The notes below the pieces were generated by a model, which had not been told where the DNA came from, did not search any database, and saw only the letters and a list, made by a program, of their open reading frames with translations. A stretch of DNA of 64,000 nucleotides from Phycisphaerae bacterium (lineage in GTDB: Bacteria > Planctomycetota > Phycisphaerae > Sedimentisphaerales > Anaerohalosphaeraceae): NCBI GenBank assembly GCA_014859965.1, contig JACZKQ010000147.1:1-64000 (forward strand). Direction: 5' to 3'. Positions 50,032 through 64,000 of this stretch are shown piece by piece. The position numbers and the translations under genes were made by a program. Each line of letters begins with the position of its first letter. Positions within the stretch are counted from its first letter, which is position 1.

Positions 50032-53000
50032 TTACCACCTGTCGCACGGAATCAGGTTGCATTCCATCCAGCCTTGCATGAAAATTGCAAAGTCAGCCAA
50101 GTCAGTCACGCAGTCACCGTTCAGGTCATACTCAGGAAATTCGGAACAAACACCCGTTGCTCCTGTGTCTGCCACATAAATCGATGAAGCCTCGACAGGT
50201 GTTAGAGCATAGTTGTAGATCTTGACATCGTCAATTAAACCAGACCACGGATTTCCACCATTTGCCTCAGAGGAACCGATGACCAGAGTCGAGTCAGGCT
50301 TTCTTGCGAACGAGAAATTGCCCGAAACAGCAGGCTCGCCATTGATGTACATAATACCCCTGGTTCCGTCAAAGGTCGCAATGATATGTGTCCACTGATC
50401 GATATGATTGGACCATCCGCCGCTTGCAAGCTGACCGGCAGTCCACGACTGGAAGTAAATAGAGTCTCCGTTGAAGGAGCATTCCAGGTGCCAGTAGTTA
50501 TCGGTGTCATTCCATGCATCTCTCTTTCCAATGATACCCTGCCATGTAGCTCCTGTTCCTGTCCATTTAGCCCAGCAGGCTACTGAAAGCCTGTTGGTGA
50601 CCTCTGAGGGATTCCACCTTCCGATTTCAACAAAGTCACTGCTGGTTCCGCCAAATGAGTAGGCGCCGTCCCCGATTTTACCCTGCACGATCGAGACATT
50701 ACCGCGTGCCAATCCGTGATGTCCTTCGCCTGAGGAGTCCTCAACGAAATCAGGCTCACCGGCTTGACCTTTTGTATCGAACGTATAGTGAGCTACCATT
50801 CTTGCGACTTCGAGACGTGCGGCCCTGGAAGTTTTCGGACCCGATGGATTACTTGCGGTACAGGTGTACCTTCCACCCGAATCCTCAGCAACCACGATTT
50901 GGAGAGTCGCGGCCGTACCGATTATCTCGTCGCTGCCCTGTTTCTTCCATTCGTACGTGACGGGCTGAGTCTGTGAACTGACGTTGAACGTAAAGGAGAC
51001 AGTCTCGCCAACTCTGCCGAATGTATCGACGGGCTGAGCGACAACATCCGGAACCAGCTTGATAGCTTCAACATACCAGACATCACCTTTTTGAGTGATG
51101 CCGCCGTAACGTACATCGACACGCCAGTAGATTTCGTCTTCGTAGTTCAGGTCCGCAGCAGCAATAACGGCCTGCATATCGCTCACCGTTACATAAGGTT
51201 CTGCATTAGGATCATTGGCAACAGCCTCGTCCTTCGTCCAGATCACATCATAAGCGACCTGGCCGCCACACGGGCCCAGAACAGCCTTTTCCCAGGTGAG
51301 CGTCAGGTCAACGTCAGGATTGATCCAGCCGTTGCCGTCCTGAGCTGGTGAGTATTGGGGATCAGTTACTTTCCAGTCCGGGCCACCGAATAACACATTA
51401 TCCACGCGATGTTCGTTGGATACGCCGCCGGTGCGAGCGCCAAAGCCAAATCGGCCGACGAAGGGCGTATATCCCGTGACGGGGACTGCATCAAATAAAG
51501 TCTCGGGGAGACCGCCTTGTCGAGTCACCACCAACGTCAGTAGGTTCGAACGGAAAGATATGTCCACATGATGCCACCCGGTGCCTTCCATAGTAAATGA
51601 CGGGACAGCGGATGCAACGACGACATTGTTTAGTCGAATGTCGAAATAGTTGCCGCCGACTTGTGCTTCACCGCCATTGTCGTACAGGTCGATGCCAATC
51701 GAAAGCGACGCGGCGCCGGGACCTGATTCGCCAAATATCGCCGTCGGGCCATAAACGCTGGAATTCAGAAGAGCGAAACTCAGCCCGTCGGCGCCGGTAG
51801 CATTAAGGGCCAGGAAATCAAACGAAACCTTGAAGTCCGCAACAGGATCGGTCGAGATCGGATCGAATATAACCGAACCGCTCAGGCTGCCGGCGTTCCG
51901 AGTAAGCCTCATCGAGCCGTCATGGACAGTGGCGTCGCCATTGACCGTGAAACCCGGGCCGCCGCCCTCAAAGTCGTAAAGCACGCTTTCGCCAGTGACG
52001 ATTGTCAAAACGGCTGAAGCCGAAGCAGTTTCACCCCAGGCGTTGGTAACAACACAGTAATAACTGCCTTCCGCGTCTGTAACGAGGGTATCGCCGATTT
52101 CACCATTAATGGCGCCATTGTCATCATACCACTGATAACTCAGATCGCCGCCATCGTCATTGATACCGCTTGTTGCTGTGACTGAAAAAGCACCCAGACA
52201 ACCACCGGGGCCAACTGACACACTAACAGGATCGCCTGTAACAATCGGAGCCATTCTCATGCTGTCGAACATAAACATTGCACCGAGAACATTGTTGGGC
52301 TCTGCAACAGTGTCGATGCGAACGAAGTACCTTGTGTCGTTAATCAGGGCGCCACCGGCAATTGCATCAAGAGAAACCGAAGTTCCGTTGACCGTGGCGA
52401 CAAGATATTCGCCCTTATTGTTAGGATCACCGACTTGGGGCGAAGTCCCGAAGTACACATTGAACTGGCTGCCGCCCAGCGGATTGGTCCATGAAAGAGT
52501 TTCGCCGGCAAGAGGAACATCACCTGCATATGCCGCCGGAGAATTGACAATAAGCGGCAATGAAAGATCTCCATCAGCGATGAAAACGGCATCGTTTTCA
52601 TTCGATGACATTGCGTATCTTACCTCGAGGAAATCTCCGCCGCCTTGTTCGTAGAACAGCACTTCGATAAGGTGTGGACCGGCGCTGAGAGCTATAGGAG
52701 CAACTGTCTTTCCAAATCCGGGATCGGGAGGAGCTGCACCTTCGCCGCCATGCAGGCCATCAAAATTTGCAACAAGAACGCCGTCGACAAAAATGATAAT
52801 ACCATCGTCGCCATCGCCCCAGAAGCTGTAGTTTCCTGCTGTCGCGATATTGAGAATGGCAATCTGCCGATACGTGTAGGTTTCGGCCCAATCATTCGAC
52901 GGGCCGACTTTGAAGTTGTTCAGTTCGCCGAATGGCCCAACATTAAGCTCGCCATCGGGAGCAGGAACGGTTAACCAATCAATTGCCCGCAATGCCGGAT

Positions 53001-53154
53001 CGGGATTGCCATCACCATTCGCGTCGACATAAAACTCTCCTTCTCCAATTGGTGCAATAACATGGCCCCACAGTTCATAATAAACTGCGGCTTTGACAGG
53101 AACAACCATCAGACCTAAACATAAAACCATAACTAACAGTAATACTCTATTCAT
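50032..53154 (-). CDS. large secreted PA14-like/Ig/lectin-like/LamG protein with dockerin-like end
   Basis: 1040 residues. A signal peptide (VLLLVMVLCLGLMVVPVKA) starts a chain of modules: PA14-like (about 25-190), Fn3-like (about 205-300), Ig-like (about 305-390), a legume-lectin-like module from VLYDFEGGGPGFTVNG to RVDNVLF (about 393-595), another Fn3-like (about 600-710), Ig-like (about 712-800) and LamG (about 805-1000). The end has one EF-hand-like dockerin repeat, DLNGDCVTDLADFAIFMQGW. It is a surface or secreted carbohydrate-binding protein with no visible catalytic site. GGAGGAC precedes the ATG by eight bases. Confidence 0.8.
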   Translation of the reverse strand: MNRVLLLVMVLCLGLMVVPVKAAVYYELWGHVIAPIGEGEFYVDANGDGNPDPALRAIDWLTVPAPDGELNVGPFGELNNFKVGPSNDWAETYTYRQIAILNIATAGNYSFWGDGDDGIIIFVDGVLVANFDGLHGGEGAAPPDPGFGKTVAPIALSAGPHLIEVLFYEQGGGDFLEVRYAMSSNENDAVFIADGDLSLPLIVNSPAAYAGDVPLAGETLSWTNPLGGSQFNVYFGTSPQVGDPNNKGEYLVATVNGTSVSLDAIAGGALINDTRYFVRIDTVAEPNNVLGAMFMFDSMRMAPIVTGDPVSVSVGPGGCLGAFSVTATSGINDDGGDLSYQWYDDNGAINGEIGDTLVTDAEGSYYCVVTNAWGETASASAVLTIVTGESVLYDFEGGGPGFTVNGDATVHDGSMRLTRNAGSLSGSVIFDPISTDPVADFKVSFDFLALNATGADGLSFALLNSSVYGPTAIFGESGPGAASLSIGIDLYDNGGEAQVGGNYFDIRLNNVVVASAVPSFTMEGTGWHHVDISFRSNLLTLVVTRQGGLPETLFDAVPVTGYTPFVGRFGFGARTGGVSNEHRVDNVLFGGPDWKVTDPQYSPAQDGNGWINPDVDLTLTWEKAVLGPCGGQVAYDVIWTKDEAVANDPNAEPYVTVSDMQAVIAAADLNYEDEIYWRVDVRYGGITQKGDVWYVEAIKLVPDVVAQPVDTFGRVGETVSFTFNVSSQTQPVTYEWKKQGSDEIIGTAATLQIVVAEDSGGRYTCTASNPSGPKTSRAARLEVARMVAHYTFDTKGQAGEPDFVEDSSGEGHHGLARGNVSIVQGKIGDGAYSFGGTSSDFVEIGRWNPSEVTNRLSVACWAKWTGTGATWQGIIGKRDAWNDTDNYWHLECSFNGDSIYFQSWTAGQLASGGWSNHIDQWTHIIATFDGTRGIMYINGEPAVSGNFSFARKPDSTLVIGSSEANGGNPWSGLIDDVKIYNYALTPVEASSIYVADTGATGVCSEFPEYDLNGDCVTDLADFAIFMQGWMECNLIPCDRW

Positions 53155-53222: not shown

Positions 53223-55211
53223 TTATGGCTTACAATCCGGAACGAGATTGCACTGCATCCACCCGGATACAAGCAACGCGAGGTCTTCGACGCCGACTCT
53301 ACAGTCACCGTTGAAATCCATTGCAGGATTACCGCCGACACAGATCATTGCGTCAAGGACGATTTCGGTATAGAGCTGGGCAGCTTCGGCAGCATTCATG
53401 GCAAAATCGTAAATGCGGCAATCATCAACCCAGCCACGCCAGAGCGCGTCACCATGAGCGCGTTTGCCCAAGCGGACAATATCCTGAGTCTGGAGGTTTG
53501 TGGTCGCAGAACCACCGTAAACACCATCGACATACCACGTAACAGTGTCGTTTTCAAAAGTACCAATCAGTAAATGCCATTCGCCATCGATTGCGTGCAT
53601 GCTCCACTCTGCTCCGTAGCGATGTATGCAATACTGATCCTGGCCGCCCTGCCTGTTGAAGTCAAAACTCTGCTCAGCTAATCCTTCGGTGCTGCTGAAC
53701 CCGAAAATGTTGCTCCATTCGTCGATCTGAGTCCACGGAACAGAGTTCTTTGCCCAACAGGTGATTGTCCTGGGCATTTCGCCTGTGATACCGACACCAC
53801 CAAACGCTACATATTGATCTTTCTCCGAATCAATGTTAACACCGATCGCCAATCCGTCCATGCCTTCAATAAACATGTCGTTGGCATCTGCCGGTGCGTT
53901 ATTGATTATGCCATCAGAACCGAAGCCTGCAACAGCCTTAACATCGCCGTCGAGCTTCCACCAGCCCAACATATGCTTGATCCTCAGAGATGCTGAATCA
54001 GACTGTGTACTGCCGTTTGGATTTGTCGCGACACAGTAGTAATCCGCAGCATCGCTATCCTGCGCATCCGCAATCGTCAGGACATTGGAGATTTCACCAG
54101 GAATGGCTGCAACGCCTTTGTACCACTGATACGTTACCGCAGCGTCAGACGCAGCCTCACAAGTGAAGCTTGCTGCCTGGCCGGGCCAGATTAGTACATT
54201 AGAAGGATGAACAGTGATTTTGGGCTTTATGCCCTTTGTCGTGAAAGACCACCAGTTGCCCACCGACTTCACATTTGGATCGGTTCCGGAAAGGTCGACT
54301 CTATCTATCCTCCAGAAGTATGCCGTCTCAACCAAGAGTGGCTCAGCCGGAGTATAAGCCGGTTCGGTCACATATGCTTTGGTGACATCGTTGGAATCGC
54401 CTATTCCGTCTGTCTGAAGATTAACCTGATATACCTCGCCTGCTCCCAAAGCGATCTCGGGGGCATCCCAACTCAGTGTAACATCCTGCGGTACATCAAT
54501 GGCGCCGTTTCTCGGCGATGGGTTTGTGGCGTCCTTGGGTGTACTGATTGTTACATTATCGACGCGATGTTCATTGCTTACCCCGCCGGTGCGGGCACCA
54601 AAGCCAAATCGGCCTGCAAAGGGCATAAATCCGGTTACGCGAACTGCATCAAATAACGTTTCGGCGACACCGCCTTGGGGGGTTACCACCAATGTCAGGA
54701 AGCCCGAATTGAAGGATATTCCCACATGATGCCACCCGGTGCCTTCCATAGTAAATGACGGAACAGCGGATGCAACGACCACATTGTTTACTCGAATGTC
54801 GAAATAGTTGCCGCCAACTTGTGCTTCACCGCCATTGTCGTACAGGTCGATGCCAATCGAAAGCGACGCGGCGCCCGGACCTGATTCGCCGAACAACGCC
54901 GTCGGACCATAAACGCTGGAATCCAGAAGGGCGAAACTCATACCGTCGGCGCCATCCGCATTAAGGGCCAGGAAGTCAAACGAAGCCTCGAAGCCCGTAA
55001 CAGGATCGGTTGAGATCTGATCGAATATAACCGAACCGTTCAGGCTGCCCGCGTTTTGAGTCAGCCTCAACGAACCGTTATGGACAGTGGCATCGCCATT
55101 GACCGTGAAGCCCGGGCCGCCGCCCTCAAAGTTGTAAAGCACGCTTGCATTAGAGATTCCAACAATGACAATCATTGTCAGAAACCACGATAAGTTGCTT
55201 CTGTACCTCAT
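53223..55211 (-). CDS. secreted lectin-like/Ig/LamG protein with dockerin-like end (paralog)
   Basis: 662 residues from ATG 55211 with GGAGGAC nine bases upstream; the longer frame adds a polar stretch before the signal peptide. Modules in order: signal peptide (LSWFLTMIVIVGISNAS), the same lectin-like domain as its neighbour (about 24-225), Fn3-like (about 230-340), Ig-like (about 345-425), LamG (about 430-610) and one EF-hand repeat DFNGDCRVGVEDLALLVSGW. It lacks the PA14-like and first Ig modules of the larger protein. It ends 68 bases before that gene, so the two likely form an operon. Confidence 0.8.
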   Translation of the reverse strand: MRYRSNLSWFLTMIVIVGISNASVLYNFEGGGPGFTVNGDATVHNGSLRLTQNAGSLNGSVIFDQISTDPVTGFEASFDFLALNADGADGMSFALLDSSVYGPTALFGESGPGAASLSIGIDLYDNGGEAQVGGNYFDIRVNNVVVASAVPSFTMEGTGWHHVGISFNSGFLTLVVTPQGGVAETLFDAVRVTGFMPFAGRFGFGARTGGVSNEHRVDNVTISTPKDATNPSPRNGAIDVPQDVTLSWDAPEIALGAGEVYQVNLQTDGIGDSNDVTKAYVTEPAYTPAEPLLVETAYFWRIDRVDLSGTDPNVKSVGNWWSFTTKGIKPKITVHPSNVLIWPGQAASFTCEAASDAAVTYQWYKGVAAIPGEISNVLTIADAQDSDAADYYCVATNPNGSTQSDSASLRIKHMLGWWKLDGDVKAVAGFGSDGIINNAPADANDMFIEGMDGLAIGVNIDSEKDQYVAFGGVGITGEMPRTITCWAKNSVPWTQIDEWSNIFGFSSTEGLAEQSFDFNRQGGQDQYCIHRYGAEWSMHAIDGEWHLLIGTFENDTVTWYVDGVYGGSATTNLQTQDIVRLGKRAHGDALWRGWVDDCRIYDFAMNAAEAAQLYTEIVLDAMICVGGNPAMDFNGDCRVGVEDLALLVSGWMQCNLVPDCKP

Positions 55212-55994
55212 TTTCTGTGTCCTCCATAATAAAATATAATTCGACTCACGTTTCTTTTCTGAAACACATCTCAAAGAGCCTGCTGCAACACCTGCATCTT
55301 TCGCACCCTCATATGGAAATCAGGCCTCGACAATACTGCCGCGAAATCCGGCTATTGTTAAGATACATATCCCGCAGGCGCATGGAAGTAAACGCAATTC
55401 TGTGCCACAAAGAAGGTTTAAAGAAATAAGAAGTGTAAAGAACCGCGACTTGAAGGTAGTGATCTTTCCTGCGGGCTATACGACTCGCCCGACCACCCCC
55501 AGAAGAAATGCGGCCTCTCTCCATTACCACACAGCCTCACTCCCAAAGATGAAAACACCTTCCATCTACGTCGCTACACATGACTCTATTCTCCATAATA
55601 GCCTTATCATTTCCGCAACGTCAAGGAAAAAACCTTCACATCGCACAAAAAAGGCCAATTTGCTTCTTTTTGGCACCCGAATGGTCATTCCTTGTGCTTC
55701 TACCCGATCTGGCCGGCGTCGATCTCTTCGGCCTGATCCAGAAAGAAGCGGCTCACAATTACGACAACCAAGACCTGATTGCCGAGTTTCAGGCAGTCAA
55801 TTACGCCTCAGCGGCTATTGGCACATGTTTCGCAATTCCGACGACACCTTTAAACCCGACTTCTTCGCCATTTCGGTAACTCTCCTTAGATTAAGCTGTG
55901 ATACGTGCAAAAAGTTGCCCGGAAAGTTACCCGACCCGAAACGGCCGCGTCAAGGGAAAATCGTAAGACGTGCAAAAGAAAGGACTTAAAAAAC
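55212..55994. other. gene-poor region between the LamG pair and tRNA-Gly
   Basis: About 780 bases. Open frames on the plus strand (55402-55989 and 55580-55879) have no ribosome binding site and a composition unlike the neighbouring genes; I do not support them. The promoter of the LamG pair should be near 55220-55300. Confidence 0.45.
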
Positions 55995-56275: not shown

Positions 56276-57574
56276 ATGGATATTAAGCAGGCCGCCGCCC
56301 GGGCAAAGGCGGCATCAATATATCTGGCCGCCGCAAAAGGCGACCTCAAGAACCGTGCCCTGGCCGACATCGCCGGTGCGATAAAGGCCAATGCCGCCCG
56401 CATCGTCGAGGCCAACCGGAAGGACCTCGCCCAGGCCGAGAAGGACAATGTCGCTAAACCCCTTCTCAAGCGACTCAAGTTCGATGAAGAGAAAATCGCC
56501 GAGGTGTGCCGCGGCATCCAGAGTCTCATTGACATGCCAGACCCGGTGGGCGGCACGCTTTCGGCGACCGAACTCGACACGGGCCTGGAACTCTACAAGG
56601 TCAGTTGTCCTATCGGCGTTATCGGCGTCATCTTCGAATCCCGCCCCGACGCTCTGGTCCAGATTTCGTCGCTCTGCCTCAAGAGCGCCAATGCCGTACT
56701 CCTCAAGGGCGGCAGCGAAGCCGCCCACACAAACCGCATCCTCGCCGACGTGATCGCACAGGCGAGCGAAAGTGCCGGCATGCCCGAAGGCTGGCTGGGT
56801 CTGCTTGAAACCCGAGCCGACGTCGCCCAGATGCTGGACCTCGACGCATATATCGATCTAATCGTGCCCCGCGGCAGCAATGAATTCGTCCGGCACATCA
56901 TGGACAACACCAACATCCCCGTGCTCGGCCATGCCGACGGAATCTGCCACGTCTACGTCGATGCCAAAGCCGACCTCGACATGGCCATCAGGATTGCCGT
57001 CGATTCCAAGTGCCAGTATGTCGCGGTCTGCAACGCCGCCGAAACACTGCTCGTGCACAACGATATCGCAGACACATTCCTTCCCGCCGTCAAGCAAGCG
57101 TTTGACGAGAAAAATGTCGCCCTTGTCGGATGTGAACGGACGGCCGAGATAATCGATGTCGCGCCCGCCGACGAGCAGGACTGGAAGACCGAATACCTCG
57201 ATGCCATCCTGTCCATCAAGGTCGTCAATAATCTTGACGAGGCCATACGGCACATCAACCGCTATGGCTCGCGGCATACGGACGCCATCGTCACGCGCGA
57301 TCCGGCCGCCGCCGCCGCTTTTATGGACCTCGTCGACAGCGCCGACGTCCTGGTCAACTGCAGTACCCGCTTCAGCGACGGCTTCCGCTACGGCCTTGGC
57401 GCCGAGGTGGGCATCAGCACCAACAAGATCCACGCCCGCGGGCCCGTAGGACTCGAAGGCCTACTCATCTATAAGTGGCGTCTCATCGGCAAGGGCCACA
57501 TCGTCGCCGACTACTCCGGCCCCGGCGCAAAAACCTTCACCCATAAGAAACTGGATAAACCCTACGGATTGTGA
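56276..57574 (+). CDS. proA: gamma-glutamyl phosphate reductase
   Basis: 432 residues. ProA marks are VIFESRPDALVQISSLCLKSANAVLLKGG, DLIVPRGSNEFVRHIMDNTNIPVLGHADGICHVYVD, the catalytic Cys252 in YVAVCNAAETLLVH, and the end TNKIHARGPVGLEGLLIYKWRL. It reduces gamma-glutamyl phosphate to the semialdehyde in proline synthesis. TGGGAG precedes the ATG by nine bases. Its stop overlaps the proB start (TGATG), so the two are coupled. Confidence 0.95.
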   Translation: MDIKQAAARAKAASIYLAAAKGDLKNRALADIAGAIKANAARIVEANRKDLAQAEKDNVAKPLLKRLKFDEEKIAEVCRGIQSLIDMPDPVGGTLSATELDTGLELYKVSCPIGVIGVIFESRPDALVQISSLCLKSANAVLLKGGSEAAHTNRILADVIAQASESAGMPEGWLGLLETRADVAQMLDLDAYIDLIVPRGSNEFVRHIMDNTNIPVLGHADGICHVYVDAKADLDMAIRIAVDSKCQYVAVCNAAETLLVHNDIADTFLPAVKQAFDEKNVALVGCERTAEIIDVAPADEQDWKTEYLDAILSIKVVNNLDEAIRHINRYGSRHTDAIVTRDPAAAAAFMDLVDSADVLVNCSTRFSDGFRYGLGAEVGISTNKIHARGPVGLEGLLIYKWRLIGKGHIVADYSGPGAKTFTHKKLDKPYGL

Positions 57575-58674
57575 TGCGCGACTTCAGCAGATCAAATCGA
57601 ATCGTCGTCAAGATCGGCACCGCCACCCTCAGCAAAGACGGCGGCGTCGACACACAGTACTTCCGCAGTGTCGCGGCACAATTAGCCGAACTCATTCGCC
57701 AGGGCCGCCAGGTCGTCATCGTCACCAGCGGCGCCATCGGCATGGGCGCCGGCCTCCTCAAACTCAAAGGCCCTGTCGCCGACATGAAGATGCGCCAGGC
57801 CTGCGCCGCCATCGGCCAGCCGCTCCTCATGCAGGAATACCGCAAGGCCTTCAGCGAATTCGATATCCACGTTGCCCAGGCACTGCTCACCGCCGAAGTG
57901 CTCAACCACCGCAAGACCTATCTCAACCTTCGCAATTCCGTCGAGACGCTGCTCAAGCTCGGCGTCGTGCCCGTCCTCAACGAAAACGACAGCGTCTCCA
58001 CCGCCGAGATCGGATCGGCTTTCGGCGATAATGACAAACTCAGCGCCCTGGTTGCAAGCAAGATCGACGCCGACCTGCTCATCATGCTCTCGGATATCGA
58101 CGCCCTCTATGACAAGGACCCCCGCAAACACCCGGACGCCCGGCCCATCGACGCCGTGTTCGAAATCTCCGACAAGATCACGCGCGGCGCCGGCAGCCGC
58201 GGCAGCACGTACTCCACAGGCGGCATGAGAACCAAAATCGAAGCCGCAAAGATCGCCGCCCAGGCGGGCTGCCGCATCGTCCTTGCCCACGGCCGGGCCC
58301 CCGATGTCATCACACGCATCATGGCCGGCGAGCAGGTCGGCACAATTTTCATGCCAAAACGCCGCCTCGGCAACCGCGCCCGATGGATCCTCAACAGCGT
58401 GCCCGCCGGAACCGTCCGCATCGACGACGGCGCTATGAACGCCCTGCGAAAAAACAAGAGCCTTCTGCCCAGCGGCGTCACCGACGTGAAAGGCGCTTTT
58501 AAGGCCGGGGATGTCGTCATGCTCAACGAGAACGCCAAGGCCGTCACCAGCCTCGGCGCAGAAGAACTCAAGACGCTCGCCGGCAAACACAGTCGACAGA
58601 TCCGCCAGATCCTCGGCCCCGCCAGAAAAGACGTAGTAGCCGCCCCCGAAGACATCGTCTTCCTCGATTACTGA
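57574..58674 (+). CDS. proB: glutamate 5-kinase with PUA domain
   Basis: 366 residues from ATG 57574, which shares one base with the proA stop. The amino-acid kinase domain has IVVKIGTATLSKDGG, VIVTSGAIGMGAGLL, LNENDSVSTAEI and STGGMRTKIEAAKIAAQAGCRIVLAHG; the C-terminal 80 residues form the PUA domain. It phosphorylates glutamate as the first step of proline synthesis and in the family is inhibited by proline. The order proA-proB is the reverse of the common proB-proA. Confidence 0.95.
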   Translation: MRDFSRSNRIVVKIGTATLSKDGGVDTQYFRSVAAQLAELIRQGRQVVIVTSGAIGMGAGLLKLKGPVADMKMRQACAAIGQPLLMQEYRKAFSEFDIHVAQALLTAEVLNHRKTYLNLRNSVETLLKLGVVPVLNENDSVSTAEIGSAFGDNDKLSALVASKIDADLLIMLSDIDALYDKDPRKHPDARPIDAVFEISDKITRGAGSRGSTYSTGGMRTKIEAAKIAAQAGCRIVLAHGRAPDVITRIMAGEQVGTIFMPKRRLGNRARWILNSVPAGTVRIDDGAMNALRKNKSLLPSGVTDVKGAFKAGDVVMLNENAKAVTSLGAEELKTLAGKHSRQIRQILGPARKDVVAAPEDIVFLDY

Positions 58675-58714: not shown

Positions 58715-60295
58715 CTATCCCCCCTGCTTCTTTAGTATCGGCAGCAGCTTGCAGCCCCGCGAGTACTCCGGTTTGGCCCGAATCAGATTGACCGTGTCCG
58801 CCTGCTCCCAGACCTGAGACGTCAACGTAATATTCTTGCCGCGAAGTCTGTTGAACACCGTCTGCACGAACGTTCTTTCGTCCAGCGCCTGCAGGTCCGG
58901 ATTTACCGCGATAACCAGCCGGGGCATGCCGATCTCGTTCTGCGTCTCCCAGAATTGATAATCGTCAGGCCCGCCCCCCGCTTCTTGAACAACATCCGCC
59001 ACCACCGAGTCAAGTTCCGACCCCAATAGCGTCATCCCTTCACAAGTCAGCTTGTCGTAACTGCGAACCTGCGCCACATGGACATTCATCCCCAATTGCC
59101 CGAACACGCAACTGCACGGTCGCACTTCCATATGCCCGAAATCCCCCAGTTCCGTATTAAACATCACTTTGCATGCGGTCGTCAGCATCGACGTCAGCAG
59201 ATAACTGTCGACGGCATGATCGCCGATCGCACTGCGGTGCCGTCGCTGAATGATCGCATGCCGATCCAGATAGATGTGCATGTCGTCGCAATGCTCCCCG
59301 TCTTTGCAGGACGCCCCTATCAATCCCGTCTCGGTGGCAACGTATCGCGTGAAGCACTTGACCCCCGCCGACTGGATAAACGATGCACGCTGAGGAGTCA
59401 GCGGCTCCCCCCCGGTAAACACCACATTTCCTGAAATGTCTGCGCCTTTCTCGATCGCCATCCGGATAAGCCGAACCGCCGAACTTGCATAAGTTCGCAC
59501 CATGCAGGACCCTTTAGCCTTGGTGGTCGCCTCCATCCATCGCAGGACCTTCTCCGCTTCATCCACGCCCACGAACTCAGGACGAGGAACAGGATACCCC
59601 AGTATTCTGCAACATAACAGCAGGTTGTTCAACGCCGCTCTGTCCCGGCGTGAAGCATTCGCGTCTCCCGTCTGCAACTGCGAGAACCACTTGTCCGGTA
59701 TCTTGTGATACTTCAGGTTCATCAGCAGGTTGTGAATGCCGGACGTGCACGGCAGCGTCGGCAGCCAAAAAGCCAGCGGCACGTTCCGCAGACCCTGATC
59801 ATCGTAAAACAATAATTCGTTCGCCGCCTCCTCGGCCAGAAAACCCCAGTTGTACGCCACTTGAACGCCTTTGGAACGGCTGCCGCTGGTGCGGGCCTGA
59901 ATACTGATCTTGTGACGCCGCGGATTGTCAAAATCGGTCTCGCACGCTTCCACCGTCAGCCCGTTGCGGCAAATCGGAACCCTTGACTTGAACTCCTGCA
60001 GCGACACGTAAACACCTGCCTCCTTGAGTCTGTCAAGCGTCTGCTCCAACCCGTCCCGCCTGACGTTCGCCTCCAGGTCGGCATACTCGCATCCCGCCCA
60101 TAACAAGAGCGCACGATAAGGACTCCCCGGATGCCCGTACACAAGCTCTCGCGCTGTTTGCAGAAAGTTCTGTTCCCGGTTCTCCATCCGCCGCCGCACC
60201 GCCTCGAAAGCCTCCTGTCGCGTTAAAGGCTGCCTGGCATATCGATGCAGTGCAACAACGTTTTGCAAGATGAATTTGAGATCGCGCGGCCGCAT
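58715..60295 (-). CDS. ANL-superfamily adenylating ligase (phenylacetate-CoA ligase/CapK-like)
   Basis: 526 residues from ATG 60295, seven bases after AAGGAG. ARTSGSRSKG near 150 replaces the usual SSGTTGKP phosphate loop, VVFTGGEPLTPQRASFIQSAGV and YVATETGLIG mark the adenylation site, and LTTACKVMFNTELGDFG matches the conserved TGD region. The C-terminal small domain holds ACEGM-like and MPRLVIAVNPD stretches. PaaK/CapK-like enzymes activate a carboxylate with ATP, often for CoA transfer; the substrate is unknown. It is the last gene of the operon with the aldehyde dehydrogenase fusion and the isopropylmalate-dehydrogenase-like enzyme. Confidence 0.75.
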   Translation of the reverse strand: MRPRDLKFILQNVVALHRYARQPLTRQEAFEAVRRRMENREQNFLQTARELVYGHPGSPYRALLLWAGCEYADLEANVRRDGLEQTLDRLKEAGVYVSLQEFKSRVPICRNGLTVEACETDFDNPRRHKISIQARTSGSRSKGVQVAYNWGFLAEEAANELLFYDDQGLRNVPLAFWLPTLPCTSGIHNLLMNLKYHKIPDKWFSQLQTGDANASRRDRAALNNLLLCCRILGYPVPRPEFVGVDEAEKVLRWMEATTKAKGSCMVRTYASSAVRLIRMAIEKGADISGNVVFTGGEPLTPQRASFIQSAGVKCFTRYVATETGLIGASCKDGEHCDDMHIYLDRHAIIQRRHRSAIGDHAVDSYLLTSMLTTACKVMFNTELGDFGHMEVRPCSCVFGQLGMNVHVAQVRSYDKLTCEGMTLLGSELDSVVADVVQEAGGGPDDYQFWETQNEIGMPRLVIAVNPDLQALDERTFVQTVFNRLRGKNITLTSQVWEQADTVNLIRAKPEYSRGCKLLPILKKQGG

Positions 60296-60335
60296 CGGTT
60301 GCTCCTTATTCTCCCGTAAATCTCGGACTAAAAAA

Positions 60336-62282
60336 CTACACTCCGCCGTACACCGTTTGTATCTGCGTGTAAAAACTGCGGTCTCCTTCTCCATGCTCCG
60401 GCGGTCCGATTCCGGATTGCTTCCAGCCTCCGAAGGGAAGGGTCGCATCCACGCCCGCAGTGGACGAATTCAGCTTCAGCACGCCGGCTTGCGCTTCTTC
60501 AAGGAACCGCAGCAGCAGCCCCTCATTGTCGCTGAATAAGGAAGCCGCAAGGCCGTGGCGTACGCCGTTGCACAAATCGAGCGCCTGGTCGAAATCATCC
60601 GCTTGCTGCACCACAAGCACCGGGCCCATTGTTTCTTCCTGAACGACCGCGTGCCCAGGCTCAGCACAGCAGATAATAGCCGGCCGTACATATGCCCCCC
60701 TCTTAAACCACATCTGCTCGGCATTGGCCCCGTGCGTAAGGATCACTCTATGCGACTGGTTGCCGGAGCGCACCGCCTCGACTATCTCTTCAATCTCGGC
60801 CCGCTTGGCCGGGCTTATAACCGGACCTATGTCGACGCCCGGATTGAGCGGATCGTTGCAGACAAGCTGATTAGCCGCAGTCTCCAGCTCTCCCAGGAAT
60901 CTCTCCAACATTGAAGAATGCACAATCACCCGCCGATTCGCCGTGCATCGCTGTCCGGCAAATGCAAATGCGCCCCACGCCGCTTCTCCGGCCGCATGCG
61001 CTATGTCCGCGTAATCCCAGACGATCGCTGCGTTGTTGCCGCTCAGTTCAGCTTGTATCGGCAACATGCGTCTGGAACAGATCTCCTGTATCGCGTAGCC
61101 TGCTCTGATTGAACCCGTAAGAGTTACCGCATTGATATTGGCATCGTCCGCAAGTCTTCTTGCCGTCGTGTGGTCCCCCGTCAGGAGACGAACAACGTCC
61201 TCCGGTATGCCGCTGTCCCGCAGCAGTTTGATCATCGCCTCCGCCACGCGAGTCGCCGCCGGGGCAGGTTTCCAGACCACCGTATTGCCGAAAGCCAAAG
61301 CCGGCGCAATTTTGCCCAACGGAACGGCAACCGGATTGTTCCACGCGGTAATGATTGCCACGACGCCCACGGGGCGATACCGAACCGAGCCCGCTCCGTC
61401 CCTTCTTTCAGACTCTGCCGACCCTGCCCGCCGTACCACGTCTCCGATGCTGCATATCGCCCTGCTGATTTCTTCGTGACAATGCGACAGCGGCTTTCCG
61501 ATATCCATCGCCATTTGTCCGGCCAGTTCGTCTCTCATCGCCTCAAGCCCGTCCGAGACGGCCTCTAAAGCCTGCTGCCGAACCGCACCCGCCGTCCTGG
61601 ACCATCGCTTAAAGGCATCCCGTGCGATCCCCGCTTCGGCGGCTGCATCGTCCGCGCCGCCTGTTGGCCGCTCGAAGAGAATTTCGTCGACACAGCGCGG
61701 GCTGCGGTGAACAAATGACGACGACGCGCCGCGATCCGGACGAGAAAGAATGGATTTCCAGGGCTCAAACACCACGCATCGGTCGCTGAGCCATCGATAT
61801 GTCGACGCCGAATACGTCGGATCGTTGCTCGCAGCAGCGTCTTCGGCGATATAGACGTGATACCCCCGCTCCAAACACTCCACCGCAACTGTACGCACAC
61901 AGGCGTGAAGATGTAGACCGGCAATGATAACCGTATCGCATTGCACCCGCTTCAGAGCCTTGTCCAGTTCGCCGTCCGCAAATGCGTTGAATCCCGTTTT
62001 CTCTACGACCGTCTCGCCCTCGAGCACCCGCAGTTCGCGCGGCGGCCTGTGTCCCTCCGTTCCGGCGACACAAACCCATCGATCCGATTTCTGCCAATGC
62101 GGCAGACGTTCGTCTTTGTCTCGCCTTACTGTCGTCCAGACGTGGATGACCGGAATCTGCCGCCTGCGACATTCCTCCAGCAGCGACATGATTCTCTTTA
62201 CAAATACTTCAGCCGACGGTTGGAGATCGGAGGCTGCAAGGTAGTCATTCTGAATGTCGACTAAAATGAGTGACGTGCGCAT
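60336..62282 (-). CDS. isochorismatase-like hydrolase fused to aldehyde dehydrogenase
   Basis: 648 residues from ATG 62282. Residues 1-185 are a cysteine hydrolase with triad Asp9 (LVDIQNDY), Lys95 (VVEKTGFNAF) and Cys128 (GLHLHACVRTVAVE). Residues 200-648 are an NAD(P)-dependent aldehyde dehydrogenase with WNNPVAVPLGKIAPALAFGNTVVWKP, Glu412 in IQAELSGN and Cys446 in GQRCTANRR. The end PFGGWKQSGIGPPEHG..FYTQIQTVY is closest to ketoglutaric-semialdehyde or succinate-semialdehyde dehydrogenases. A hydrolysis and an oxidation could act in series. The start overlaps the preceding gene by 22 bases. Confidence 0.82.
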   Translation of the reverse strand: MRTSLILVDIQNDYLAASDLQPSAEVFVKRIMSLLEECRRRQIPVIHVWTTVRRDKDERLPHWQKSDRWVCVAGTEGHRPPRELRVLEGETVVEKTGFNAFADGELDKALKRVQCDTVIIAGLHLHACVRTVAVECLERGYHVYIAEDAAASNDPTYSASTYRWLSDRCVVFEPWKSILSRPDRGASSSFVHRSPRCVDEILFERPTGGADDAAAEAGIARDAFKRWSRTAGAVRQQALEAVSDGLEAMRDELAGQMAMDIGKPLSHCHEEISRAICSIGDVVRRAGSAESERRDGAGSVRYRPVGVVAIITAWNNPVAVPLGKIAPALAFGNTVVWKPAPAATRVAEAMIKLLRDSGIPEDVVRLLTGDHTTARRLADDANINAVTLTGSIRAGYAIQEICSRRMLPIQAELSGNNAAIVWDYADIAHAAGEAAWGAFAFAGQRCTANRRVIVHSSMLERFLGELETAANQLVCNDPLNPGVDIGPVISPAKRAEIEEIVEAVRSGNQSHRVILTHGANAEQMWFKRGAYVRPAIICCAEPGHAVVQEETMGPVLVVQQADDFDQALDLCNGVRHGLAASLFSDNEGLLLRFLEEAQAGVLKLNSSTAGVDATLPFGGWKQSGIGPPEHGEGDRSFYTQIQTVYGGV

Positions 62283-63442
62283 GCCGCCTCTTCTGAATCC
62301 GCAATATTGAACACCTCCTGTGCGACCCGCTCCGCCATCGCCTGCGTTCCTGCTATGCAGCAGCCGGGCGCCGCCAAATCCGCCGTGCGCCAGCCTTGGC
62401 CCCATGCATTGGTCAAAGCCCCTTCAATCAGCGATGCGGCCTCGACCAGTCCGAAACTTTCGCGCAGCAGCATGGCAAGAGACAAAATCTGTCCTGCGGG
62501 ATTGGCGATGTCCTTGCCTGCGATGTCGTGCGCGCTTCCATGATTTGTCTGATACACGGCTTTCCCGTCCGCTCCGAAATTGCCCGAGAACGTTGCCCCT
62601 CTCGACCCCGTCAGCACCCCGCTGACGTCGACGAGAATGTCCCCGAAAAGGTTCGGCGTTGCTATCACGTCGAATTGGCAAGGGTGCCCAACAATCTCGT
62701 AAGCCGCAAGATCGACGTTCATCATCACCGCGTCCACCCCATACTTGTCAGCCGATTGCCTGCTGATGTCCTGCCATAGTTCGCTGATTGCAGGCACGCC
62801 GTCCTGCTTGACGATCACGTGCATTTTGCCGCTGCGGCTTGCCGCCGCTCGGCAGGCGACTTCGATAAGGCGTCTTACCTGTAATTCACTATAGCTGAAA
62901 GAGTGTTCCGCAATCGCCCCTTCCTCCGTTGCAAATGTTTGCCACCGACCCTGGTAAACACCCCCTGTATTATCCCTCACAATAAGGATGTCTGCATCCA
63001 TATTCTGCTTCGAAAGAATCCCGGCATCGGCTAATTGAGGCCACGGCCGAACGGGTACGAATTTGCAGAAAAGGTCGAAAACTTTGCGCTGATCGTAAAC
63101 GTATCGGCGTCCTCCCGGTCCGCTGAGGATAGCTCCGTTCTGAGCGAAGACATCTTCGCAGAACATCACTACCGAATCGGGAAGCGGCCGACCACACAGA
63201 GCCTCCGCCTCTTCGCCGATAGGACCGCCGTGCCGAAGTTCGAACTTCGTCCCAAGTACCTGTTCTACCGCCCTTAATACACCAAGACTTGCCCTTACGA
63301 TTTCAGGACCGATCCCCGTGCCTTCGATGACACCGATTACCGGTCGCGAACCCGGTTTTGCAGCAAAACCGTCCGCACTGTTTCCGGCTGCAAAGGCTTT
63401 CAGACTCTTTGATTCCCATCCTTCTTGTTGCTTGCAGTCCAT
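62261..63442 (-). CDS. isocitrate/isopropylmalate dehydrogenase-family enzyme
   Basis: 393 residues. After a 33-residue N-terminal extension the beta-decarboxylating dehydrogenase fold begins with PVIGVIEGTGIGPEIVRAS. NMDADILIVRDNTGGVYQG, DVIATPNLFGDILVDVSGVLTG and NHGSAHDIAGKDIANPAGQILSLAMLL are the substrate, metal and NAD regions. Members oxidise and usually decarboxylate a 2-hydroxy acid such as isopropylmalate, isocitrate or tartrate; the substrate loops are atypical, so none can be assigned. An in-frame TGA sits just before the ATG at 63442. First gene of the three-gene operon. Confidence 0.85.
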   Translation of the reverse strand: MDCKQQEGWESKSLKAFAAGNSADGFAAKPGSRPVIGVIEGTGIGPEIVRASLGVLRAVEQVLGTKFELRHGGPIGEEAEALCGRPLPDSVVMFCEDVFAQNGAILSGPGGRRYVYDQRKVFDLFCKFVPVRPWPQLADAGILSKQNMDADILIVRDNTGGVYQGRWQTFATEEGAIAEHSFSYSELQVRRLIEVACRAAASRSGKMHVIVKQDGVPAISELWQDISRQSADKYGVDAVMMNVDLAAYEIVGHPCQFDVIATPNLFGDILVDVSGVLTGSRGATFSGNFGADGKAVYQTNHGSAHDIAGKDIANPAGQILSLAMLLRESFGLVEAASLIEGALTNAWGQGWRTADLAAPGCCIAGTQAMAERVAQEVFNIADSEEAACARHSF

Positions 63443-63921: not shown

Positions 63922-64000
63922 GCCGGAGTGGCGGAATGGCAGACGCGCGGGATTCAAAATCCCGTCCTGGCAACAGGGTGTGGGTTCAAGTCCCACCTCC
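63922..64000 (+). tRNA. tRNA-Leu (anticodon CAA), cut by the window end
   Basis: Acceptor GCCGGAG begins at 63922, the D arm has TGGCGGAATGGC, and the anticodon stem CGGGA/TCCCG holds TTCAAAA with anticodon CAA. A long variable arm (CTGG..CAGGG) marks a class II tRNA. The final three acceptor bases and discriminator lie outside the window. Confidence 0.93.

Follow-up and report, generated by a model that had tools for sequence, protein, structure and literature searches.

In the EntA-EntB-EntE system, a dehydrogenase and an isochorismatase-family hydrolase feed an adenylating ligase. The same logic can be read in three neighbouring genes of the Phycisphaerae bacterium stretch analysed here (64,000 nucleotides, hereafter the window), which encode a beta-decarboxylating hydroxyacid dehydrogenase homologue (IDHL), a fusion of an isochorismatase-like hydrolase with an aldehyde dehydrogenase (ALDH), denoted as HAD, and a PaaK-like ANL ligase (Table 1). 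However, the dehydrogenase of this trio belongs to another family than that of the EntA-EntB-EntE system, and an ALDH is additionally present. Judged by sequence, each of the three enzymes belongs to a known superfamily and has no named function inside it, and none of the three gave an NCBIfam family match above cut-off. The original prediction named no pathway known to combine these enzymes, and a search of the open-access literature likewise found no description of the IDHL, HAD and ligase set.

Table 1. Features of the trio and of its insertion slot in the window.
Feature	Position	Strand	Length	Family or remark
IDHL, beta-decarboxylating hydroxyacid dehydrogenase homologue (NAD-type)	62261-63442	-	393 aa	PF00180
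HAD, isochorismatase-like cysteine hydrolase + aldehyde dehydrogenase fusion	60336-62282	-	648 aa	PF00857 + PF00171
PaaK-like ANL (adenylate-forming) ligase	58715-60295	-	526 aa	no Pfam family
IDHL/HAD overlap	62261-62282	-	22 bases	from ORF coordinates
HAD-ligase gap	60296-60335	-	40 bases	AAGGAG ribosome-binding-like site upstream of ligase ATG 60295
proB (glutamate 5-kinase)	57571-58674	+		left slot border; homologues in 12/15 relatives
tRNA-Leu(CAA)	63922-64000	+		right slot border; runs beyond window end; ARAGORN on L020 5923-6006

The trio is transcribed from the minus strand in the order IDHL, HAD and ligase, convergently with proB. The HAD and ligase reading frames open at 62405 and 60448, respectively; when ATG 62282 and ATG 60295 are taken as the starts, HAD has the length given in Table 1 and the one-strand arrangement of the original prediction, with its overlap and its gap, is reproduced to the base. 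The overlap between IDHL and HAD is consistent with translational coupling. A scan for promoters and terminators gave nothing beyond the shuffled-sequence level, and no transferase, carrier protein, transporter or regulator was found beside the trio in the window.

In six relatives, tRNA-Leu(CAA) directly follows proB, within about 65-140 bases, and the slot between them is empty. In the window, the trio fills the space from the end of proB at 58674 to the start of the tRNA gene at 63922. Because the slot is empty in the six relatives and filled here, the trio appears to have come as one block, and a joint arrival of the three genes is probable. A search for flanking repeats that could mark the insertion gave only weak, chance-like ones around the trio. 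It should be noted that a genome of the window's own family (G142) carries a 70%-identical ligase at a different site, without the IDHL and HAD pair, so the ligase may have a family history of its own and need not have arrived with the pair.

Two-domain HAD homologues are rare: the window's phylum yielded 4 in 216 genomes, the phylum to which the Nitrospirae locus L015 belongs 1 in 242, and that of the Deltaproteobacteria locus L017 1 in 189. All six genomes with a full-length HAD also carry the IDHL subfamily, at 39-48% identity across the three phyla, and this recurrence rules out a chance neighbourhood. The two genes are same-strand neighbours in five of the six (the window, G700, G1192, G135 and G044), one of these five being split by a contig break. 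This is the deltaproteobacterial genome G700, in which contig C231 ends with IDHL and 75 N-terminal residues of HAD, and the remainder of HAD, with the ligase behind it, opens contig C107; most simply, the break divides the same three-gene order as in the window. The order is permuted to ligase, IDHL and HAD in G1192, where glycosyltransferases, SPASM radical-SAM genes and a flippase surround the set. In the sixth genome (G071), HAD lies ~1.2 kb from IDHL in divergent orientation, with a PhyH-type oxygenase gene between them. The ligase adjoins IDHL and HAD in three of the six genomes (the window, G700 and G1192). In G135 and G044, IDHL is followed by HAD with neither a ligase nor an NRPS beside the pair, and a ligase homologue was not found in G135, G044 or G071 at single-sequence sensitivity. 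The proposal that these genes form one system thus gains from the co-occurrence of IDHL and HAD in all six genomes, the ligase joining them in three. Had the homologues been mostly scattered among unrelated neighbours, the prediction would have lost its ground; this is not so for IDHL and HAD, but it is partly so for the ligase, which is found apart from the pair in at least five other loci.

IDHL matches PF00180 at 5.8e-64 (Pfam), and the window genome contains three further PF00180 genes. Its best curated model is leuB (TIGR00169), with 209.6 bits against a cut-off of 353.2 bits, and it falls below every NCBIfam equivalog cut-off. In a phylogenetic tree, the IDHL proteins formed a 100/100 clade apart from other PF00180 proteins in the same genomes. 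The metal Asp triad (D244/D268/D272), K212, Y163, R119, R156 and the NAD-type D306 are invariant in the six IDHL proteins. Based on alignment to solved LeuB structures, these invariant positions correspond to R94, R132, Y139, K185, D217, D241, D245 and D278 in LeuB numbering. IDHL and LeuB therefore share the fold family, the metal Asp triad, the Lys and Tyr, two substrate Arg residues and the NAD-type Asp, and IDHL has the catalytic Lys, Tyr and metal Asp residues that are conserved in PF00180 enzymes. On these grounds, IDHL is likely to be a decarboxylating dehydrogenase.

However, the substrate pocket of IDHL differs from that of LeuB. The third substrate Arg of LeuB is replaced by V, S or T in all six IDHL proteins, so that the FANLRP motif of LeuB corresponds to F(C/L)K..P, with V/S/T at the Arg position. 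Thirteen LeuB residues ahead of the substrate helix, beside the substrate pocket, are deleted, and K-G-L-L of LeuB reads R-(F/Y)-V-Y in IDHL, the Leu-Leu pair having become V-Y in all six. IDHL thus lacks both marks of LeuB, namely a score above the equivalog cut-off and the Leu pair together with three substrate Arg residues. In plant IPMDH, the Leu pair lies near the aliphatic chain of the substrate and sets specificity (PMC8468904). Since the Leu pair, the third Arg and the 13-residue stretch are all changed, the substrate of IDHL would not be isopropylmalate. A role of IDHL as an enzyme of leucine biosynthesis or of the TCA cycle is ruled out by the clade, the cut-offs and the pocket.

HAD contains PF00857 (1.7e-35) in its N-terminal hydrolase half, at about residues 4-165, and PF00171 (3.7e-115) in its C-terminal ALDH half, at residues 195-644. 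The Asp-Lys-Cys triad of the hydrolase (D9/K95/C128) is present in every HAD sequence covering these positions, and the ALDH residues N315, K338, E412 and C446 are invariant where covered. HAD therefore carries the signature of oxidising NAD-dependent ALDHs (Cys, general-base Glu and oxyanion Asn), and the invariant E412 and C446 suggest oxidation of an aldehyde to an acid. The closest relatives of the hydrolase half are N-carbamoylsarcosine amidase-like, biuret and nicotinamidase-type hydrolases, with which it has the Asp-Lys-Cys triad and PF00857 in common. Unlike the named isochorismatase-like hydrolases, it is fused to an ALDH and scores far under all named equivalog cut-offs. The ALDH half most resembles catabolic semialdehyde dehydrogenases, among them the 2,5-dioxovalerate type, sharing the catalytic Cys, Glu, Asn and Lys and a full-length PF00171 domain. 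In contrast to these enzymes, it is fused to a hydrolase and scores no higher than 304.7 bits where the NCBIfam cut-off is 750 bits, and the HAD proteins form their own clade in the tree. The predicted structure of HAD (pLDDT 49.5) was too poor to use.

The ligase gave no Pfam match, and the NCBIfam PaaK model matched it at 1e-5 with 24.3 bits against a cut-off of 700, which is below the curated level for PaaK. However, a PDB search with its family profile yielded PaaK-like ligases (4e-6 to 4e-5), and hhalign aligned it with CapK/PaaK neighbours at 95.7% probability. The top folds for the ligase model, which is weak (pLDDT 59.5) and only indicative, were acyl-ACP synthetases and other ANL enzymes. 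Conserved across the family are a TSGS-like P-loop, Y318/E322, D385, a pair of Cys residues and the C-terminal Lys516; its similarity to ANL enzymes over the adenylating core, with the P-loop and the C-terminal Lys conserved, is remote but consistent. A TSGS-like P-loop, Y-x-x-x-E, a Gly-Asp segment and a C-terminal Lys are common to the window ligase and PaaK/CapK ligases, whereas the window ligase differs from them in lacking a Pfam match, in resembling them only remotely at the profile level and in having a conserved N-terminal region of ~80 residues. From this remote but consistent similarity, we assign it to the ANL superfamily as a PaaK-like ligase. Pfam and the remote PaaK profile matches thus agree with the families originally assigned to the three genes (decarboxylating dehydrogenase, hydrolase-ALDH fusion and ANL ligase), and in a column check every catalytic residue tested was present, as had been claimed for the active sites.

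Relatives of the ligase, aligned at 30-70% identity, occur without IDHL or HAD in at least five other loci (G142, L015, L018, G1257 and G1251). L016 is cut at the ligase, and its genome gave no match to HAD that extends over the hydrolase. In G142 (L019:4424-11353), the ligase follows a heme-synthesis run with a radical-SAM/SPASM protein and HemA-, HemC- and CobA/HemD-like ORFs. The ligases of two Nitrospirae loci (L015:7094-9554 and L018:7046-9533) directly follow an NMT1/SsuA-like protein, 73% identical between the loci and with no signal peptide visible, which might be another source of the acid or a sensor. Another ligase relative (L052) adjoins radical-SAM and CapK-like genes. At L054:8448-10971, a distant relative overlaps a downstream gene for a GNAT acetyltransferase, a possible acyl-transfer partner.

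In G071, an NRPS with the domains A-T-C...TE starts 9 bases after IDHL and stands in the place of the ligase, which is thus the exchangeable part of the set. In A domains, an Asp binds the amino group of the substrate, and its loss speaks for an acid that lacks an alpha-amino group. The A domain of the G071 NRPS has Ala at the position of the amino-binding Asp of LgrA in the alignment and would therefore favour such an acid. The NRPS at L063:13122-17576 consists of A-T-C, an apparent C-terminal remnant of an A domain, a T domain with GGNL for GGHSL, and then a thioesterase, and has a long KP-repeat linker. The insertion between proB and the tRNA gene, the exchangeable activating enzyme and the divergence of the IDHL pocket from LeuB all go beyond the original prediction.

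With moderate confidence, we propose that the set is a biosynthetic cassette, able to move between genomes, by which a small non-amino carboxylic acid is made and adenylated for transfer to another molecule. The proposal rests on the recurrent linkage of IDHL with HAD, the frequent presence of an acid-activating enzyme beside them, the NRPS and glycan contexts in G071 and G1192, the invariant ALDH residues and the insertion into the slot. That the trio serves one pathway, as the original prediction suggested, is well supported, whereas the semialdehyde that it raised as a possible intermediate is conjectural; for biosynthesis over degradation, the support is moderate. We infer that the enzymes would act on a single carbon skeleton in the following order. 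Using NAD+ and a divalent metal, IDHL would oxidise a 2-hydroxy-3-carboxy acid and release CO2; the hydrolase half of HAD would cleave a C-N (amide-type) bond; its ALDH half would convert an aldehyde to the free acid, presumably one without an amino group; and the ligase, or the NRPS, would turn this acid into an acyl-adenylate. Candidate acceptors of the acyl group are a carrier protein, CoA, a sugar, a lipid or a peptide. Speculatively, loss of the third Arg could mean that the IDHL substrate lacks one carboxylate of malate, in which case decarboxylation would yield an aldehyde for HAD. Counting against the cassette are the pair without ligase or NRPS in G135 and G044, the ligases that occur without the pair, and the lack of a transferase, carrier protein or transporter next to the window trio.

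A catabolic operon, in which an environmental amide or hydroxy acid would be degraded and the CoA ester formed by the ligase would enter central metabolism, is suggested by the relatives of both HAD halves named above, by the Rieske oxygenase that follows the pair in G044, and by PaaK, itself a catabolic enzyme. However, the NRPS context in G071 and the glycan context in G1192 argue against it, as do the rare and patchy distribution of the set and the lack of a transporter or regulator beside the trio, and we consider this explanation unlikely. The pair and the ligase might also be two systems side by side, IDHL and HAD forming one conserved pathway and the ligase being an independent neighbour. 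The ligase is missing beside the pair in three of six genomes and occurs alone elsewhere, including next to NMT1/SsuA-like proteins and heme genes, but its adjacency in three phyla and in two different gene orders, and the NRPS in its place in a fourth case, make such a coincidence improbable.

In the LuxE/LuxC pairing, a ligase stands beside an ALDH-superfamily reductase, and the trio, with its PaaK-like ligase next to an enzyme of the ALDH superfamily, is reminiscent of it. By analogy, the ligase would adenylate an acid and the ALDH half would reduce the acyl group to an aldehyde. However, HAD belongs to PF00171 and not to the LuxC family, the general-base E412 is kept in all six HAD proteins as expected for hydrolytic oxidation, and the scheme gives IDHL and the hydrolase no role, so that reduction of this kind is very improbable. 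Returning to the biosynthetic cassette, a broader and more tentative reading is that it represents an undescribed, horizontally moving pathway in several phyla, in which a new acyl building block is made by a new dehydrogenase subfamily and a hydrolase-ALDH fusion and is loaded by interchangeable enzymes (PaaK-like ligase or NRPS). IDHL and HAD could then serve as a compact gene signature of an acid-supply route, with which new clusters for natural products or surface polymers could be sought in Planctomycetota, Nitrospirota and other groups. The trio further extends PF00180 by a subfamily whose substrate pocket is altered and contributes an ANL ligase family missed by current domain libraries, and its three soluble-looking enzymes make the identity of the acid directly testable.

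Rieske oxygenases that are 62-64% identical to one another occur in L016 (L016:3042-4283), G044 (L065:11190-12428) and G135 (C13:690674-691882), two of the three beside the ligase or the IDHL and HAD pair. As a core partner, the oxygenase was rejected, since neither the window genome nor most of the others contain it and 54% relatives occur in Caballeronia. Plasmid-borne copies were likewise dismissed (no match for the ligase, ALDH matches of only 33-37%), as was a defence or phage origin, for which PADLOC gave 0 matches and PHROG only generic ALDH/dehydrogenase families with no assigned function. Elsewhere in the window, two related large secreted-looking proteins are encoded in tandem (50032-53154 and 53223-55274); they have repeats in common and a dockerin-like segment (D-NGDC...) at the C-terminus.
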